From the IMG/VR virus record IMGVR_UViG_3300042564_001170, positions 1 to 31,264 of that record: a stretch of DNA of 31,264 nt. One strand, 5' to 3'. Below are positions 2,971-31,264 of this stretch, piece by piece. The notes beneath the pieces are model-generated. The model saw nothing but the letters and a program-made list of their open reading frames with translations, was not told the DNA's origin and made no database searches. Position numbers and translations under genes: made by a program. Position 1 is the stretch's first letter. Each line of letters begins with the position of its first letter. This DNA is from a virus.

Positions 2971-3481
2971 TTACTACGTATTTTAAAAATGATTCTAAGT
3001 CTAAGCCGTATTTTTCGGCGATAACTTGGTCAAAGTTTTGGTATTCTAAATCAAATGCCGAGCGAAAAAATTTCGTCTCGGGTGTTCCTGTTTTATTTAT
3101 CGAGCGGGTTATTGCTGCGACCAACGATTTACGGCTTGTAAATTGACCGCTTGCGCTTCGGGTGCCTTTTAATCCTTTTCTAACCACCCACTTATCAATC
3201 GCACCTGTTGACGCGCTGGCCTTGTATGGAGATTGTGGGGCCTTTCTACTTGATTGGCTCCCTGTTGTTCCATAGTCCAATAGCTTCCAGTAAGACTCAG
3301 CAAAGAAATCAAACTCTAACGAGTTCGGGTTTATCTTTGTTTTGAACGTGAGCGACCTCGATAGGTTGCCGCTTGCGTTGTGCGTGCCATATTTGCCCCC
3401 TCGTTTTAAATTGGCTTGCGCTCGCTCTACAACTGACGCGCCAAAATCATTGAGGGCCTGTTGAACTATTTTAGTTTCCAT
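2951..3481 (-). CDS. HK97 gp10-like head-tail/tail completion protein
   Basis: Encodes 176 residues. The N-terminal part reads as a helix followed by a basic, Gly/Ser-rich segment (RGGKYGTHNASGNLSRSL), then YWKLLDYGTTGS, and later PETKFFRSAF. The 'ASGNLSRSL ... DYGTTG' combination resembles the HK97 gp10 family, proteins that complete the tail or head-tail joint. It overlaps its neighbours by 11 bp (upstream) and 20 bp (downstream). Placement between the putative tail terminator and the Dit-like gene fits. The family call is from pattern memory and is moderately secure. Confidence 0.7.
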   Translation of the reverse strand: METKIVQQALNDFGASVVERAQANLKRGGKYGTHNASGNLSRSLTFKTKINPNSLEFDFFAESYWKLLDYGTTGSQSSRKAPQSPYKASASTGAIDKWVVRKGLKGTRSASGQFTSRKSLVAAITRSINKTGTPETKFFRSAFDLEYQNFDQVIAEKYGLDLESFLKYVVNENIKR

Positions 3482-3935
3482 CGCAACAAACTGAGAATTG
3501 ATCGTTTGGAACGCTCAACTCAATGTCACACTTCCAACCGTCGAGGGCATTTGTGAACGCCATAAATATCGGCTGCAAATTAGGCTCATTCAAAAGTTCG
3601 ATGTCGTTCTCGTTGCGTCTGAGCTGCATTTTTGTGATCATATAGTTGAGTATCGCGTGGCAGGTGTTTAGGTTGTCGAGTTCGTTGTCGTTGCCTAAAA
3701 ATTTGTCCTTGATTTGCACCTTTGACATGTTGCGAATGTCAACGACTGCCACTTCAAAAGTAAAAGTCACAACGCCAGTACTAACGACTGACGAGAGTAC
3801 ATTAATGTGAGCGAGTGGGAATATGTTTTTTTTGACGTTGTCGATTATGTCCGTGCCTTGAGTGATTGTGTTAAGGAGCGGCGCACTTTCGAGCGTGGTT
3901 TTTATGTAATCTATTGCTTGGTAAAATGTTCGCAT
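3471..3935 (-). CDS. Putative tail terminator / tail completion protein
   Basis: Encodes 154 residues beginning MRTFYQAIDYIKTTL. Size, the N-terminal amphipathic helix, and the central strand-rich part (VVTFTFEVAVVDIRNM) resemble tail terminator proteins, which cap the tail tube. The start ATG overlaps the stop codon of the upstream -1 reading frame (TAATG at 3937-3933). It does not touch the stop of the 0-frame chaperone product at 3985. That spacing supports translation of the shifted frame and coupling to this gene. The C-terminus (SVCCDGN) is unremarkable. The functional call is by position and shape only. Confidence 0.6.
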   Translation of the reverse strand: MRTFYQAIDYIKTTLESAPLLNTITQGTDIIDNVKKNIFPLAHINVLSSVVSTGVVTFTFEVAVVDIRNMSKVQIKDKFLGNDNELDNLNTCHAILNYMITKMQLRRNENDIELLNEPNLQPIFMAFTNALDGWKCDIELSVPNDQFSVCCDGN

Positions 3936-4677
3936 TATTTCATTTGTTTTTTAATTTGTTTGGCTTCTTCTGCCGACTCATCGATTAGGTAAGATAGTAG
4001 CGTGAGTGATTCATGAAGAGGCTCTTTTCCCACATCTCGAACGTGGACTCTAAGTTCACGCGACAATCTAACAAAGCTTTGAAACCAACCCCAGCGGTCT
4101 CCAAAATTTCCTCCAAATTCAGTCCCTCCCTCGCTGCTTTGTCCTCCAAATGCAATAGGGTATTGCTCAACAATTCCTTGTTTAAAGTCCAAAAAAAAAG
4201 CATCGAGCCAACCACAATATCCATTGTGACATCCTTATAAAAATCTGCCTTGCTTTCGTCGCCATCGTACTCTTCAATTTCATAAAATTCGCCTGCTTTA
4301 CGTTTAATAGGTCTATAAAGTACCGACATTAATAGCGGTATATTTTCATCAGTACCAAGCAGCGTGTCAATTGTTGCGTGTTCGCCGAGTGTAATCTTAT
4401 CAAAGTTCGGAATAAATCCGTAGTTGACGCCATTCATTTTAAACGTGCGGACGAGCTTCGGCTTTTGATCCAATACTTTTGCAAGAGTCTCAATAATATC
4501 AGTAAAATCATTAACAGGGATTTTCATAACATCGGCCACCGTTAGGTTGCAAAATATCGCCACCATTTGAATGCAAACGAAGGTCTCATCGTCGAGGTTG
4601 TCCTTCAATACCTTTTGATATCGTGAATATTGCGACAATTTTATCTCGCTTAAGCTTGTTGGAATAACTACTCTCAT
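3935..4677 (-). CDS. Tail assembly chaperone, -1 frameshift fusion (gpGT-like)
   Basis: Shifting -1 on the T run gives 162 codons of the 0 frame plus 85 codons of the second frame, about 247 residues. The second frame opens only at the slippery site (its sole early start-like codon is a TTG in the T run), so independent initiation is unlikely. Its sequence includes NFGDRWGWFQSFVRLS and PLHESLTLLSYLIDE, which match the T-domain pattern I recall from Bacteroidota phage tail chaperones (WGW...L...P..E.L..LSY). Its stop overlaps the next gene's ATG. Lambda G/GT is the classic precedent for such a -1 shift. Efficiency cannot be judged here. Confidence 0.75.
3985..4677 (-). CDS. Tail assembly chaperone, 0-frame product (gpG-like)
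   Basis: Encodes 230 residues starting MRVVIPTSLSEIKLSQYSRY. I recall related proteins in Bacteroidota siphophages at the tail chaperone position; they help fold or recruit the tape measure during tail assembly. The gene contains a run of nine T's (minus strand) at codons 160-163, where ribosomes could slip to -1. Without slippage, translation continues for 68 codons (starting WTLNKELL) to a stop at 3985. This downstream part still looks like normal protein, so the region may be coded in two frames. The gene follows a 136-bp gap after the large terminase and carries a putative late promoter just before its ATG. Confidence 0.75.
   Translation of the reverse strand: MRVVIPTSLSEIKLSQYSRYQKVLKDNLDDETFVCIQMVAIFCNLTVADVMKIPVNDFTDIIETLAKVLDQKPKLVRTFKMNGVNYGFIPNFDKITLGEHATIDTLLGTDENIPLLMSVLYRPIKRKAGEFYEIEEYDGDESKADFYKDVTMDIVVGSMLFFWTLNKELLSNTLLHLEDKAAREGLNLEEILETAGVGFKALLDCRVNLESTFEMWEKSLFMNHSRYYLT
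4191..4200 (-). other. Slippery site for -1 ribosomal frameshifting
   Basis: On the minus strand the sequence is C followed by nine T's, read in the 0 frame as CTT TTT TTT TGG. This contains the heptamer T TTT TTT in the correct phase for a simultaneous -1 slip, after which reading resumes as TTG GAC in the second frame. It lies in the tail chaperone gene, the usual place for this type of recoding in siphophages. Confidence 0.75.
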
Positions 4678-4813: not shown

Positions 4814-5977
4814 CTAAGTTATGATAACTTTTCTCGATTTTCTTATCGATAGGCCCATCATTGCAAAATAGCGAAGGGCGTCAATCGCATGATTGTAGTC
4901 ATCAATCGGGCGGTTGAGTCGCTTGCCTGTTTTGTCGGTGTCCCAAGAGTAGTTGCGCAGCTCTTTTATTAGGTTGGTGCTTTGCTTTGTGACCAGCAAG
5001 TCCTTTTCCTGCAATACTGAAATCCCGAAATTGATTGAGTCGGCACCTTTTACAACTGGCTTAATATTGAAACCCGCTCGGCGTATCTCCTCAATAGATT
5101 TTGGCTCCGCTGAGTCGGCCCAAATTGGTAGGCGTTTGTCTTGTTTCATTAATCGAATGATATCCGAGTTTAAAAGTGAGGTCGAATAAATCAATTCGTC
5201 TGCAATTATTTTGCCGTTGTACTCGTATACGGCGATCATTGCCGTTGGATCGTTTGAGTACCCGAAATCGAGGCCGCAACCTAAGAATTTTGCCTCTTGA
5301 GGTATTGTGTCTATTTGTTCCCAATTAGGGAACACAACGCCCTCAAGTGAGCCGAGTTGACCTAATCCATAAACGTTATACCAGTTCGCCCAAAAAGTTG
5401 AGGTCTTGGCCTTCTCTTTTGCTTTGAGAATAAAATTTAGGGCTGATTCGGGACAAGCCTCGTTGTCCTCGTAGTTCACAATTAAGAAATCCACGTCGTG
5501 GTCGTTCATTAAATCGGTGTGAAACCAAAACTCGTTCACTGGATTCCAATCCAAATAAACGCCTTTTTTGGTACGCGAGGCGAGTTCGGTGTACGCGTGG
5601 AAGGTCATATTATTTGCCTCGTTCATGTACAAATAATCACGCCTTGCACCTCGAAGCTTTGAGTCGTTCTCTGCGCTAAAAAATTCTATGGCCGAGTTGT
5701 TGGCAAAGGTGTATTTAAAGTCGGTCGCGTTCCATCTTTGCGGATTCCATCGACCTGTCAATACCATTATTTTTTTAAAGTCTTTTATTGCCCCTCTTTT
5801 GAGGTGTGGTATCGACTCCGCTACAACCGAGATTTCGAGAAGCTCGGTCTTGCAGCATAAGTCAATAAGTATTGGAAGGATTCCGAAGGTCTTGCCCGCT
5901 GAGGTGCCTCCTTGTATTCCTTTGGTAAATTTTTTTAGCCCTAAGACTTTATTAATTACTGTTGTTCGTACAAACAT
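4814..5977 (-). CDS. terL: Terminase large subunit
   Basis: The packaging motor ATPase/nuclease that loads DNA into the prohead through the portal. From ATG at 5977 it has 387 residues. Walker A is GGTSAGKT at 23-30 and the Walker B-like LYMNE ends with the catalytic Glu at about 120. The RNase H-like nuclease acids are visible as LDFGYSNDP (D237), WADSAEP (D288) and NHAIDALRY (D366). The frame is open further upstream to a TTG at 6058, but that would overlap the small subunit by 107 bp and add a non-conserved stretch. The ATG at 5977 overlaps it by only 26 bp. The gene immediately follows the small terminase. Motifs make this call very secure. Confidence 0.95.
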   Translation of the reverse strand: MFVRTTVINKVLGLKKFTKGIQGGTSAGKTFGILPILIDLCCKTELLEISVVAESIPHLKRGAIKDFKKIMVLTGRWNPQRWNATDFKYTFANNSAIEFFSAENDSKLRGARRDYLYMNEANNMTFHAYTELASRTKKGVYLDWNPVNEFWFHTDLMNDHDVDFLIVNYEDNEACPESALNFILKAKEKAKTSTFWANWYNVYGLGQLGSLEGVVFPNWEQIDTIPQEAKFLGCGLDFGYSNDPTAMIAVYEYNGKIIADELIYSTSLLNSDIIRLMKQDKRLPIWADSAEPKSIEEIRRAGFNIKPVVKGADSINFGISVLQEKDLLVTKQSTNLIKELRNYSWDTDKTGKRLNRPIDDYNHAIDALRYFAMMGLSIRKSRKVIIT

Positions 5978-6365
5978 CGGGAAAAAGTGGTTGCTCTTGG
6001 TGCGTTGTGATGTCTTGATATACCCTATCGGAGTACTTTTTTGGGTGCAATTTTGCAACGATCCATTTGCGAGCGTCGATTTTTAATCGATCACGTTGCA
6101 CTACATTCGCTCCAGTAAAGGGTGTATGATCCTCGTCGGAGTGATCGGCGATGTCGATGATGTCCTCAAAGATAACGTCAGCTCGGATTTCGCACGCGCG
6201 CACGTATCTTTTTGCTTTGTCTTCGTCTGCTTCCAACCACTGATAAAACGTTGCAGTACTTGGGAACTCTTTACGTCTTAAGATTGATATAAGTGAATTG
6301 CCTTGCTCTATTTCTCTTAAGATTTCGTCGAAAGTGTCATCTATTTGTTGCTGGGAGTAAGCCAT
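5952..6365 (-). CDS. terS: Terminase small subunit
   Basis: Encodes 137 residues. The N-terminal part has a helix-turn-helix look (SLISILRRKEFPSTATFYQWLEADEDKAKRY, about residues 23-53), followed by a helical, acidic oligomerisation-type region and DARKWIVAKLHPKKYSDRV, a pattern typical of small terminase subunits that recognise the packaging site. It lies directly before the large subunit and overlaps it by 26 bp. It also overlaps the upstream 71-codon gene by 25 bp. No cos or pac site could be pointed out. Family and context agree well. Confidence 0.9.
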   Translation of the reverse strand: MAYSQQQIDDTFDEILREIEQGNSLISILRRKEFPSTATFYQWLEADEDKAKRYVRACEIRADVIFEDIIDIADHSDEDHTPFTGANVVQRDRLKIDARKWIVAKLHPKKYSDRVYQDITTHQEQPLFPDVCTNNSN

Positions 6366-10195: not shown

Positions 10196-11408
10196 TTTGT
10201 TTAAAAATTTTTAGTGTGTAATCTTTTTTTTGTTGCACGGTCTTATAAATATCGTATTCAATACCGCCTTTTGAGAATATCCAAAAGACCTCGTTCTCTT
10301 GTCGCTGCATTGTGGTCATTCGATCACGGCTTTGCCAGTAACTTGTCGCACTAAAATCAATGTTATAGTAAACGAGATACTTTGCGTTTTTCAAACTGAC
10401 GCCCTCGCGTCCGCTGACAATCTGCAAAGCGATGTTTTTATCGGTTGCGTCAAACTCCTCGACTGAGTTTGTCAAGTAATCGGCTCCAAATACTTGCAGC
10501 AGCGCGTCCCATTCGGCCTTAAATTTATAAAAGATTGCGATTTTTTCGCCTTGAAACTTCTCCTTTATAAACCTGGCCTTTGAGTCGTCAATTACTTTGC
10601 TGGTGCCGTCTTCGAACTTACAAGTGCCACTCGATAACTGGTGTACTTTTTGCATTAACTTAACGCCTGTATCGCCTAAAATGACTTGCCCTTGTCCGTT
10701 GCGAACAATTAAGTCCTTTTTAAGTCTGCGAATGACCTCGTAAGTGATTGGTTGCATCTCGCACTCCAGCACCATTTCGTTGACTGATGTTGTAAAGCCT
10801 GCCTCTTTTTGTGTGAAAGTTATAATATACGGCCGTGTGGATCTTCGAATAAGATTCTCTTTTGCGTTTGAGTAGTCCTTCACAACGCCATGCCCTAATC
10901 GTTTCTCCTTGATGTCAACGTACTCAGCCGCCCACTTATAAAAGTTCGCATAGTTTTTATAGGGCGAGTAATCACTTACCCAAAACTGATGGAACCATTG
11001 CGAGTAACTCTCGGGCGTTGGCGTACCGCTTAGGAATATCATTGGCAGTTTACTGAAACGCTTTTTAAACTCCTTAGCCGTTGCGTTCGGCTTAGGGAAT
11101 GCGCCGAAGCGATGGTGTTCATCGTGTATGATTAAGTCAAAGTCGCCATTGACTAAATGTAAACTCTCATCGTTTATGATTGTTAAATCAAACGTAAATC
11201 CGAAGTTGTCGTAGTCCCATTGAATTGACGAAATGGCTTTCTTTTTAGTCAGAAACAATACATTTTTGGCACCGTAGAGTTGCGCCGTATTGAGTGCGGT
11301 CAAACTCTTGCCAGTTCGCACCTCCATCGCCAAATAGACGATGTGTTTATTTCGTAAAATCTCAACCGCCTCAGCTGAGATTTTATTTTGGTATGGTCGT
11401 AGTTCCAT
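10173..11408 (-). CDS. SNF2-like superfamily 2 helicase
   Basis: Encodes 411 residues. Motif Q/I region RPYQNK near the N-terminus, Walker A variant EVRTGKS (29-35), Walker B DEHH (96-99), motif III SGTP (127-130), then helicase C-terminal elements (IAIFYKF, VSGREGVSLKNAKYLVYYN, YWQSRDRMTTMQRQ). The compact size is typical for phage SNF2 proteins that act in DNA replication, recombination or nucleoprotein remodelling. It overlaps the HNH gene by 26 bp at its start and the methyltransferase by 23 bp at its end. The N-terminal ATG is followed at once by the RPYQ motif, which supports the start. Confidence 0.9.
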   Translation of the reverse strand: MELRPYQNKISAEAVEILRNKHIVYLAMEVRTGKSLTALNTAQLYGAKNVLFLTKKKAISSIQWDYDNFGFTFDLTIINDESLHLVNGDFDLIIHDEHHRFGAFPKPNATAKEFKKRFSKLPMIFLSGTPTPESYSQWFHQFWVSDYSPYKNYANFYKWAAEYVDIKEKRLGHGVVKDYSNAKENLIRRSTRPYIITFTQKEAGFTTSVNEMVLECEMQPITYEVIRRLKKDLIVRNGQGQVILGDTGVKLMQKVHQLSSGTCKFEDGTSKVIDDSKARFIKEKFQGEKIAIFYKFKAEWDALLQVFGADYLTNSVEEFDATDKNIALQIVSGREGVSLKNAKYLVYYNIDFSATSYWQSRDRMTTMQRQENEVFWIFSKGGIEYDIYKTVQQKKDYTLKIFKQNERTISI

Positions 11409-12258
11409 CGATTATTTTGTTTGATTTTTTAAGATTATCAATTGCCCAAAGTGGTTGAAAATTTGTATAATGATTTAGCTTAATTAAATGCTCCTCATCT
11501 TTTGCTCGTGATACTGGATAAATATGATCTAAATGCCATTTTCCTTGATTTTCCCAAGTCATTCCATCAGTAAATTGTTTTTCAATATGCTTTTTAAAAT
11601 CTTCAAAACTACATCCTAAAATTTGATATGTTCTTGAACGTTTTGTATAACCATTTCTTTTAAAACTATTAACAATTGCAGTGCTTATATAACATCGTAA
11701 TTTAAAAATGGTATCATTTTTTCTTTTATTAGTATAATATTTTCTAAAATATTTATTAATTCTTTCTTTATTTTTTTCTCTATATTCTTTATCTTTTTTC
11801 TTATACTCTATTAATTTATCTTTGTTATTTAAAAGCCATTCTTTTCTTTTTTCATTATAATTTAAACGCCATTGTTTTTGGTATTGTAATACTTTTTCTT
11901 TATTATTTTCATAATATTCTTTAAATTTTTCTTTATTATCTTCATAATATTCTTTTAATTTATCTTTATTTTTTAAATAATTTTCTTTTCTTTTTTGTTT
12001 TATATTCTCTTTATTATTTTCATAATATTGTTTAATTTTTTCTTTATTTTTTTCTCTATATTTTTTTTGATTTTCTTTACTATTTCCTTTAAATTTTTCT
12101 TTATTATTTATAAAATATTTTTTTTGGTATTCTTTTAATCTTTCTTTATTTTTTTCTCTATATATTTTTTGATTTTCTTTAGTATTTTTATTATATTCTT
12201 TTATTTTTTCTTTATTTTTTAACCTCCATTCTTTCATATATTCTTTTCTATCACTCAT
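11383..12258 (-). CDS. HNH endonuclease with long Lys/Asn/Glu repeat region (homing-like)
   Basis: Encodes 291 residues. The first 180 or so are a repeat array of units like NKEKIKEYYEN, very rich in Lys, Glu, Asn and Tyr, probably helical and DNA-contacting. The C-terminal 100 residues carry the nuclease: LGCSFEDFKKHIEKQF, GMTWEN, WHLDHIYPVS (HNH His pair) and FQPLWAIDNLKKSNK. This architecture is known from free-standing homing-type endonucleases in phages and large viruses. It sits between primase and helicase genes, overlapping the helicase start by 26 bp. It is much more AT-rich than its neighbours, which suggests lateral arrival. No intron is evident. Confidence 0.85.
   Translation of the reverse strand: MSDRKEYMKEWRLKNKEKIKEYNKNTKENQKIYREKNKERLKEYQKKYFINNKEKFKGNSKENQKKYREKNKEKIKQYYENNKENIKQKRKENYLKNKDKLKEYYEDNKEKFKEYYENNKEKVLQYQKQWRLNYNEKRKEWLLNNKDKLIEYKKKDKEYREKNKERINKYFRKYYTNKRKNDTIFKLRCYISTAIVNSFKRNGYTKRSRTYQILGCSFEDFKKHIEKQFTDGMTWENQGKWHLDHIYPVSRAKDEEHLIKLNHYTNFQPLWAIDNLKKSNKIIDGTTTIPK
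11750..12240 (-). repeat. Degenerate tandem repeats encoding the HNH N-terminal array
   Basis: The DNA consists of near-repeats of TTCTTTATT-like words on the plus strand. The clearest pair is 12041-12090 versus 12143-12192, offset by 102 bp (34 codons), where about 45 of 50 bases agree. The repeats are in frame with the HNH protein and vary mainly at third positions and short gaps, so the array looks selected as protein. It is not a CRISPR array: there are no unique spacers. Confidence 0.7.
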
Positions 12259-28589: not shown

Positions 28590-30452
28590 TTACCCTCCAA
28601 GTGTTGCGCTCGATATGATGTTGCGATCTAAGGATTGGGCCGTTGTCACATTATTAGCAACGACATACGCTTGCACGGGAGCTGCCTCTCTATTTCCGAT
28701 AACGCCCGCCAATTGATTGACACCTGTTGAGCCAACGACGTTGAATTGAGGAGCGTTTGCGCCACCCGCGCCACTCATCGCGCTCATACTTGGAGCAGCT
28801 CCACCGCCGCCGCCTCCTGGGACTTTTACCGATATAATATCCTTAACGGCTTTGAAACCTGTTGCGGCAATAATTGCAACGTTCGCTATTTTTAAACCAA
28901 TCTCAAACGGCGTGACTGTTTTGGTCGCAAGCTCCGCAGTAATACCTTGATAAGTATTTATGGTTGCTGCTGCAATTGCCATCGCTTTACCCGCTGCGGT
29001 ATTTTTACCCAATAGGTCAGCTCCTTGACTTAATACGCTTGCAGTTTTTGCGAAAATAGCTTGTTTTGCTGCCGCCTCTTTTTCAGCTAATTGGATATTA
29101 GCTTTTGCAAGCTCCTCATCTTTTACTTTTTGCTCTTCTCTAATTTTATCCTCCTCGCTTGCATATTTTTGCATTACACCTGTTCGCTCAAGGGCAAATG
29201 CGTCGGTCAAAGTTGTAGTGTCTTGACCTAATTTTGTAGCGAGTGCGATTTGGTCTTGATATTTTTTATCAATTGCAGCAAGTTCAATTTCCTCCCTTGT
29301 CATTGTGGACTCGGCAATTAATTGATTTGCGTCTTGATTTGCTTTGTACAAATTGTCAAAATCCTCTTGTATTTTTTCGACTTTTTTCTTTTGCAATTCC
29401 GCTAACTCCTCAGCCTCTTTTTGTCTTGCTGCATATTGCTCCTCGGCTAATTTTTTATTGATTGCCGCTTGAGCGTCGCTCAATTGTTTGCCGTGAGAAG
29501 CTCTTAAAACGCGCTCGTCTTGCAAGGCTTGGTCAAGTTTCTCTTGATCGTCTTTGTATAGCTTTTGCTTATTTTTTAGATTATCAAGTTCTAAGGAGTA
29601 AGTGTCTTTGCCACTTGCTTTTAAAACTGCTATTCGGTTTTCGTTGTCTTTTACCAATTTAGCCAATTGCTCGGCTGCCGCTTCGTCTCTTTGATTTTGA
29701 CGTTCTTTGGCTGCGCCTGCCTCGTAGTTTCCAACGACATCAAAGCCTTTTTTAATCTCCTCGATTGCGCCTTTAAAATCGCCTGCAATCAATTGGCCTA
29801 ACGCTTTGAATGGCATTAAAATGTAGTTTTTAATTACATTACCAGCCCCGAATGCGTACTCCTTTAATTTGTTGAAAACATTACCCACGTTATTAAGCGC
29901 AGGGAACGCCTCTTTTGCAGCCGATACAATATCCTCCCAATTTGCTGCAATAGTTCCCAAAGCAACCACAAGTAAACCAATACCAGTTGCACCGATTCCC
30001 GCTTTGATTCCTTTAAGCGCGTCAACTGCAACGGCCTTAAGTTGTTTGAATGAGTCGCGGCTTTCGCCTAACGCTTGCAATCCTTGCGATAAAGCCATCG
30101 CGCTTTGGACTTTTAAAAGTGACTCCTCTAAGTTTTTATTTTCAACACCCGCTAAATTGAGCGCACCTTGATACGCTGAAAACCCAGCAGCAACACCCGA
30201 CAAAGACGAGGTCAAAGCCTTAAATTTAGCGTCGGGATTGAACGCGTCAGTCAACGCCTTTGCGTCTCCGATTCGGTCTTTAAGTTCTCCCGCTCTTTTT
30301 GCAGCGTTAACCGCTTCGGCTGACGTTGCTCCAAATTTATCAGACAACGCAGCAACCTCTTGTTGCGCTGCTCTAAGTTGTGAGCGTAAAGAGCCAACCG
30401 CCTCGTTGACGTTGCCTTGTACTTTTATATCAATAACCTTTTCTATTGCCAT
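28590..30452 (-). CDS. Tape measure protein
   Basis: Encodes 620 residues starting MAIEKVIDIKVQGNVNEAVG. Residues 1-60 form a helical start (LRAAQQEVAALSDKFGATSAEAVNAAKRAGEL). A hydrophobic Gly/Ala segment (GIGATGIGLLVVALGTIAA, about 148-166) is likely the membrane-active part. A long coiled-coil region rich in Ala, Glu, Lys and Gln follows (about 245-480), then another hydrophobic stretch and a Gly-rich PGGGGGGAAP segment. This is the standard tape measure composition, setting tail length (at roughly 0.15 nm per residue about 90 nm). It ends the tail cluster, which is an unusual position after the Dit-like gene. Confidence 0.88.
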   Translation of the reverse strand: MAIEKVIDIKVQGNVNEAVGSLRSQLRAAQQEVAALSDKFGATSAEAVNAAKRAGELKDRIGDAKALTDAFNPDAKFKALTSSLSGVAAGFSAYQGALNLAGVENKNLEESLLKVQSAMALSQGLQALGESRDSFKQLKAVAVDALKGIKAGIGATGIGLLVVALGTIAANWEDIVSAAKEAFPALNNVGNVFNKLKEYAFGAGNVIKNYILMPFKALGQLIAGDFKGAIEEIKKGFDVVGNYEAGAAKERQNQRDEAAAEQLAKLVKDNENRIAVLKASGKDTYSLELDNLKNKQKLYKDDQEKLDQALQDERVLRASHGKQLSDAQAAINKKLAEEQYAARQKEAEELAELQKKKVEKIQEDFDNLYKANQDANQLIAESTMTREEIELAAIDKKYQDQIALATKLGQDTTTLTDAFALERTGVMQKYASEEDKIREEQKVKDEELAKANIQLAEKEAAAKQAIFAKTASVLSQGADLLGKNTAAGKAMAIAAATINTYQGITAELATKTVTPFEIGLKIANVAIIAATGFKAVKDIISVKVPGGGGGGAAPSMSAMSGAGGANAPQFNVVGSTGVNQLAGVIGNREAAPVQAYVVANNVTTAQSLDRNIISSATLGG

Positions 30453-30580: not shown

Positions 30581-31264
30581 ATTGTAGTACTGGTAAGGTT
30601 ATTATTGTTGAAACGCCTCCTTTAAAATATTCTAAAAATACCGCGTCAAGCCTATCCGCTGCCGTTGCATTTGCAGGAATAGTCACATCGAGCAAAATAT
30701 CGGTATCGTTGTCAGTCGAAAGCGTATAGCTCAAAAAGTCGCTTGACAATTTTACGTCGAAAGTGTCGTAATTATTGCGGTAAATTATGTATTGCACCTC
30801 TTGAGCCGTGTTATCTACTTGCAAAGTTTGGAGGTTTGAATACCGTAAATAAGTTGTATTTTGAGATGCGTCTCTAAAATCGTTGATTAACTCCAAATTT
30901 ACCTCTCCGCTTGTGAGGTCGGTTGTCATAGTATTTATAATATATCGTTTATTAGAAACTATTACCCTATCATTTAATTTTAAAGATGAAAGCAAATAAG
31001 GATTAAATAAACCTTTTGCTTTTAATACTCTTGTACGTTGATTATATAAGTTATTTATGTATTGACTATAAAACTGTTGATATAATCCATTAGGTGCAAA
31101 TGACAAATTCCAAACTGAATTTTCAACCCCCCAATTTAAAGTTTGTAAATAATTTAAATCAGTTGCAGCAAGTTGTATTTCATTTGAAAATCTTCGGTAT
31201 TTATTTGAAAGAATATTTGCACCACTTGAATTTTTAAAGTAAATTCTATTTGTAGTAGCACCTT
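30573..31264 (-). CDS. Large tail/baseplate protein, C-terminal part (runs off the right edge)
   Basis: Reading frame open from the right edge to TAA at 30573; 230 codons here, of which the first 54 repeat the end of the left-edge fragment. It continues SFAPNGLYQQFYSQYINNLYNQ..., LSSLKLNDRVIVSNKRYIINTMTTDLTSGEVNLEL, typical of the C-terminal part of flavobacterial tail-tip proteins. Through the terminal overlap it joins the fragment at 1-1872 to make one gene of about 799 codons. The final part (SSDFLSYTLSTDNDTDILLDV) is beta-rich and may be a separate small domain. It should not be counted as a separate gene. Confidence 0.85.
   Translation of the reverse strand, partial: GATTNRIYFKNSSGANILSNKYRRFSNEIQLAATDLNYLQTLNWGVENSVWNLSFAPNGLYQQFYSQYINNLYNQRTRVLKAKGLFNPYLLSSLKLNDRVIVSNKRYIINTMTTDLTSGEVNLELINDFRDASQNTTYLRYSNLQTLQVDNTAQEVQYIIYRNNYDTFDVKLSSDFLSYTLSTDNDTDILLDVTIPANATAADRLDAVFLEYFKGGVSTIITLPVLQYA
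31104..31264. repeat. Right copy of the 161-bp terminal repeat (circular overlap)
   Basis: Matches 4-164 with two mismatches, both synonymous in the tail gene. It closes the genome at about 31,100 bp. Confidence 0.9.

Follow-up and report, generated by a model that had tools for sequence, protein, structure and literature searches.

In phage lambda, the tail assembly chaperones gpG and gpGT are produced through a conserved −1 frameshift (reviewed in PMC5009743). The two proteins have an N-terminal domain in common, and a slippery heptamer leads into a −1-frame T domain that has no start codon of its own. The lambda slippery sequence is GGGAAAG and the slip occurs near the 3′ end of G. Programmed backward shifts within the gene are also annotated for chaperone genes of actinophages, where the mean distance from the slip to the 0-frame stop is 26 nt over the 2476 annotated SEA-PHAGES genes of the PRFect training set (PMC10885494). 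Overprinted overlapping genes have been described in viruses together with omega tests for them (OLGenie; PMC7531306). As in the gene presented here, both frames of such overlaps are under purifying selection, measured by similar logic, but they are two separate genes, whereas here alternative ends of one gene are joined by slippage.

The gene is carried on the minus strand of IMG/VR virus record IMGVR_UViG_3300042564_001170, of which the whole stretch analysed (31,264 nt) is referred to as the window. As shown in Table 1, it has the gpG/gpGT layout: two open reading frames, the downstream one lacking its own start, with an in-phase slippery heptamer between them. Codons 159-163 of the 230-aa frame read ATG-CTT-TTT-TTT-TGG and form a T9 run. 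Past the Phe-Phe pair, 68 codons follow in the 0 frame vs. 85 in the −1 frame, so that the unshifted product is 230 aa long and a shifted one would be 247 aa long. The −1 tail (LDFKQ...WGWFQSF...PLHESLTLLSY...KKQMK) has no ATG until its last residues. The first-pass annotation had proposed that a −1 slip on this run exchanges one tail for the other, that the shifted frame carries a T-domain pattern and that its stop and the start of the following gene overlap; the reading frames, the phase of the heptamer and the TAATG junction agree with all three proposals. T9 is the sole A/T homopolymer of at least 9 in the window, and among 14 structural or neighbouring genes scanned the slip gene alone combines an in-phase XXXYYYZ heptamer with a −1 frame outlasting its own stop. 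A T_TTA_AAC heptamer (4186-4180, minus strand, in phase) occurs just after T9 in the window and in some close relatives; it was dropped as a candidate extra slip site, as most relatives have TTTAAGC.

Table 1. Coordinates of the slip gene, its parts and its neighbours in the window
Feature	Position	Strand	Remarks
0-frame ORF, 230 aa, coding for a gpG-like product that has a C-terminal tail of its own	3985..4677	-	start ATG 4677
G domain common to both products, codons 1-159	4201..4677	-	single-coding by substitution pattern; PHROG 32199
T9 run	4191..4199	-	slippery heptamer T_TTT_TTT 4192-4198, in phase for −1 slip
Dual-coding stretch, read as G tail (0 frame) and as T domain (−1 frame)	3988..4188	-	substitution tests
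0-frame stop TAA	3985..3987	-	
T domain read in the −1 frame past the slip, 85 codons and stop	3935..4192	-	stop TAA 3937-3935
TAATG, T-domain stop overlapping the ATG of the next gene (3935-3933)	3933..3937	-	
Next gene, 154 aa, PHROG 30964 (unknown function)	3471..3935	-	
Terminase large subunit, upstream neighbour	4814..6058	-	
Tape-measure protein (PHROG 9483, 1538)	28590..30452	-	several genes downstream on the circular map

Like lambda, this is a tailed phage with a tape-measure gene. Its slippery sequence is unlike that of lambda, and the slip gene is placed after the terminase gene. The record has an imperfect 161-bp direct repeat at both ends (4-164 and 31104-31264), and for this reason it is probably a circular map cut open inside a long structural gene. 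In a 291-aa ORF of the same strand (11383-12258), KENKEKIKEY-like repeats are numerous, and the end that comes after them (LDHIYPVSRAK) is HNH-like.

A protein scan of viral contigs returned at least 80 loci with 72-98% identity, and every one of these that was readable to its end has T9, an open −1 frame and a 0-frame end at codon 230. In this main clade, the run, both open frames and the identical 0-frame end codon were found in 73/73 distinct relatives. A profile scan gave at least 572 relatives, from which 77 further loci, mostly of 30-44% identity, were taken. The relatives are metagenomic contigs, and a G-domain identity of 60% divides their 132 complete genes into 32 lineages. The shift site and both reading frames are kept throughout the 73 close relatives and the 32 lineages, and within the T domain the W-G-W motif is invariant and Y70 nearly so (40 sequences). 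The T run, for which the first-pass annotation advised a search in related phages, is present in all homologues read (T7 being the shortest), and in none of them does the −1 frame stop early. Scans of GTDB genomes with two queries found no relative.

One close known system is that of Nonlabens phages P12024L and P12024S (JQ823123, JQ823122), in which gp40 and gp41 together show a G domain 30% identical to that of the window gene, T9 again and a −1 T domain that is homologous, with the same order of neighbours. They differ from the window gene in that the 0-frame tail ends 25 codons after the run. Their records annotate gp40 and gp41 as two separate genes without a frameshift; in P12024L (NC_018272.1, 23946-24640, our locus L156) the pair looks like one T9 frameshift gene. 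As these flavobacterial phages are relatives, the host of the window phage probably belongs to the Bacteroidota. Gene order extends to more distant members: the succession terminase, slip gene, PHROG 30964 and PHROG 29822 was found again in lineage L205, the terminase gene is upstream also in the Nonlabens phages and in L171, and a gene of the PHROG 30964 kind follows in L205 and, by position, in the Nonlabens phages.

The 0-frame stop of the window gene is 203 nt past the T run, and across the 32 lineages the corresponding distance is 54-270 nt, vs. the mean of 26 nt in SEA-PHAGES genes; the design had been called less usual in the first-pass annotation, and these distances bear this out. Selection on the overlap was analysed in the 73 distinct main-clade genes by parsimony and simple codon models, with codon-pair bias addressed through third-frame and G-domain controls. 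Wobble positions in the single-coding part have an entropy of 1.05 bits and are variable at 96% of sites, while −1-frame wobble entropy is 0.54 bits in the overlap vs. 0.90 after the 0-frame stop. In 27 phylogenetically independent pairs, with the codon model fitted upstream, −1-synonymous differences in the overlap reached 0.416 of expectation (95% interval 0.35-0.48), which is the outcome that the annotation's reading had called for downstream of the run. The corresponding ratios were 0.97 upstream, 1.09 in the next gene (six pairs only) and 0.67 after the 0-frame stop; the depression in this last, single-coding region is probably due to the start signals of the next gene.

In tree-based parsimony, the 0 frame of the overlap had an omega of 0.20 [0.13-0.38] and the −1 frame, under the stronger constraint, one of 0.08 [0.05-0.17]. 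Upstream, where the −1 and +1 frames are non-coding, they had values of 1.54 and 0.97. When the 166 −1-silent differences were placed randomly, 13.9 stops arose in the 0 frame (minimum 6 in 200 runs); none was observed. A parsimony count reads two or three single changes as stops because several changes share one codon on one branch, and none of the actual or reconstructed main-clade sequences has a 0-frame stop. Amino-acid changes in the 0 frame are also gentler than random (BLOSUM −0.48 vs. −1.04 ± 0.12), and with each unique change counted once the values are −0.69 and −0.96 ± 0.12, with 8/500 random sets reaching the observed one. Constraint on the 0 frame is found across the overlap and is strongest in its first 66 nt. 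We conclude that the overlap of two open frames is not due to chance and that purifying selection acts on both frames of about 200 bases, which code for two protein tails; the unshifted tail had been suspected of being real protein, and the duplicate use of about 200 bp had been predicted.

Two other explanations of these patterns were weighed. The least credible is that only the −1 frame is selected and the 0-frame tail is accidentally open, as a shadow of the T-domain sequence. The −1 frame is indeed clearly the stronger one, the length of the 0-frame tail varies among lineages, and some 0-frame similarity follows of necessity from KWGW in the −1 frame (NG[DV]G and other such motifs were dropped as evidence for this reason). 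Yet the avoidance of 0-frame stops, the depressed synonymous rate, the 0-frame omega with its controls near 1 and the excess of 0-frame similarity across lineages, given below, contradict it. Very unlikely, too, is that the low synonymous rate reflects an RNA element, such as a frameshift stimulator or another signal, rather than a second protein. The depression is greatest over the 70 nt that follow the slip, where a stimulator is usually located, and a weak hairpin is common to the main clade; against this, the constraint reaches about 180 nt, covariation is slight, and it is the 0-frame sense that is specifically spared, with no stops, milder amino-acid changes and a helix pattern. Folding revealed no strong downstream structure (z-scores near zero, from −1.0 to +1.4, in 12 sequences folded without pseudoknots).

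The two-frame use of the overlap extends to the family. The 0 frame is open for 54-270 nt past the slip in 32/32 lineages, which are less than 60% identical to each other, whereas drawing −1 codons by the codon usage of each locus predicts 14.2/32 lineages open for at least 54 nt (sum log10 P = −15.1). The first 18 codons of the 0 frame are alike across lineages beyond the −1 shadow (z 10); among the controls, the third frame gave z 1.8, and shadows within the G domain gave −0.3 and −0.4. They follow the pattern FF[WYCL]xL..[ED]LL.....[YS]L[EK], and their hydrophobic moment is 0.387 vs. 0.313 ± 0.018. The excess similarity and the helix pattern together indicate that the tail starts with a predicted amphipathic helix selected family-wide, and in these 18 codons the trait is not peculiar to the window. 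Past this first part the length of the tail is lineage-specific, suggesting that the T domain may be the older frame, to which long 0-frame tails would have been added by overprinting. In six loci (L167, L168, L170, L172, L174 and L176) the 0 frame runs for 264-270 nt and ends later than the −1 T domain, which makes the unshifted product the longer one there. A stop interrupts the third frame within 18 codons in 32/32 lineages vs. 28.9 expected, possibly as a result of selection against +1 products.

The T run itself bears on the machinery that slips. It is T9 in 27 of the 32 lineages, T10 in three, T11 in one and T7 in one, and T9 occurs in three different codon phases. In all 32 lineages, and in every gene with a complete tail, it contains T_TTT_TTT in phase, that is, an X_XXY_YYZ heptamer as used in ribosomal −1 shifts. 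Slippage of RNA polymerase on T9, giving mRNAs with 8, 9 or 10 Us, would switch the frame while leaving the proteins and the dual coding unchanged. Transcriptional slippage is known in bacteria from T runs longer than 8 (PMC3711429, citing mxiE), a length that T9 reaches, no stimulatory RNA structure was found, and a run of nine or more is kept in nearly all lineages and in three codon phases, where a heptamer would be enough for the ribosome. Nevertheless, we regard the polymerase as an unlikely agent: the heptamer is in the single phase that −1 ribosomal slippage requires in all lineages, and the T7 lineage (L209, L210, L221 and L230) has exactly T_TTT_TTT in phase, which favours the ribosome. 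A shade more doubtful is the broader proposal that throughout the 32-lineage family two separately selected chaperone C-termini are produced in a ratio set by the polymerase, and not the ribosome, on a T9 conserved for its length; if true, the G:GT ratio would be set in a manner that is new.

Evidence on the function of the gene is less direct. The G domain matches PHROG 32199, a family of unknown function (E 9.6e-22). No match was obtained in Pfam and no significant one in a PDB fold search, and no named PHROG family identifies the gene as a chaperone. PHROG 166 (‘tail protein’) gave weak matches in 3/8 lineages (E 0.002-0.013), and near-misses in BFVD (E 0.25-0.57) are named tail assembly (chaperone) protein. 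The gene adjoins the terminase and PHROG 30964 genes, not a tape-measure or tail-tube gene, and is thus away from the usual position before the tape-measure gene. The name of tail chaperone given in the first-pass annotation therefore holds in part, being backed by the architecture and the weak profile and fold matches and not by a named family or by the gene's neighbours. With no family match and a place beside the terminase, the pair could be the two forms of a different phage assembly protein; we consider this unlikely, as a G of about 160 aa, a −1 slip site and a T of about 85 aa are the layout of tail chaperones, the pair is the only slip-linked one among the genes scanned in a phage with a tape-measure gene, and the weak matches point to tail families. 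Membership in the gpG/gpGT kind is likely, and a chaperone function is suggested by the architecture together with these matches.

A fold relative of the G domain was found in Flavobacterium phage 6H (R9VW65, BFVD E 1.9e-4), identified in the genome (L234, 10044-10927) by its length of 191 aa. This protein (10927-10352) precedes a 153-aa gene and is encoded upstream of the tape-measure gene. As a further case of the overlap it was rejected, because a comparable T9 overlap was not seen. An unannotated 300-nt gap downstream of the 191-aa gene holds an open −1 frame, and PHROG 25418, to which the protein belongs, has a length of 293, which hints at a fused product.

AlphaFold2 modelled the 0-frame product with a mean pLDDT of 79.8. 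A predicted helix at residues 152-183 spans the slip residues 160-162, and further helices at 188-194 and 197-227 are of lower confidence, that of the tail being 57-71. Modelled alone, the T domain also begins with a helix (pLDDT 67). In these models the slip falls inside the last helix of the G domain, and with a helix predicted across the slip residues and a T domain that starts helical, either frame could finish it.

Taken together, we favour, with a probability of roughly 0.7, a gpG/gpGT-like tail chaperone with a helical, selected C-terminus on its abundant unshifted form and the T domain on its minor, shifted form. Most ribosomes would read straight through T9 and make the 230-aa G product, while a minority would slip by −1 at T_TTT_TTT and make the 247-aa GT product. 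As the slip would occur within the last G helix, both frames would have to complete this helix, and the unshifted form would gain a mostly helical C-terminal tail. By analogy with lambda (PMC5009743), G may be in excess and coat the tape-measure protein, and the rarer GT may recruit tail-tube subunits. The G tail may serve in finishing or stabilising G, or in contacts of G with itself and with the tape-measure protein. We infer that slippage occurs, with the ribosome as its agent and G in excess.

What distinguishes this gene from the known gpG/gpGT kind is its long, selected 0-frame tail: lambda has its slip close to the 3′ end of G, but here the unshifted product runs for 68 selected codons past it. 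We found no description of such a tail for phage chaperones in the open-licence literature. Frameshift finders tuned to short overlaps would misread this gene family, as would gene callers, which is illustrated by the Nonlabens annotation. The overlap is also a bacterial-virus example, with strong statistics, of bases maintained by both frames. The unshifted chaperone of well-studied phages is in essence the protein minus the T domain; here it has a selected end of its own, so that slippage would pick between two functional ends rather than add one. The role of the unshifted form is directly testable, since the 0-frame tail can be altered with the T domain untouched.
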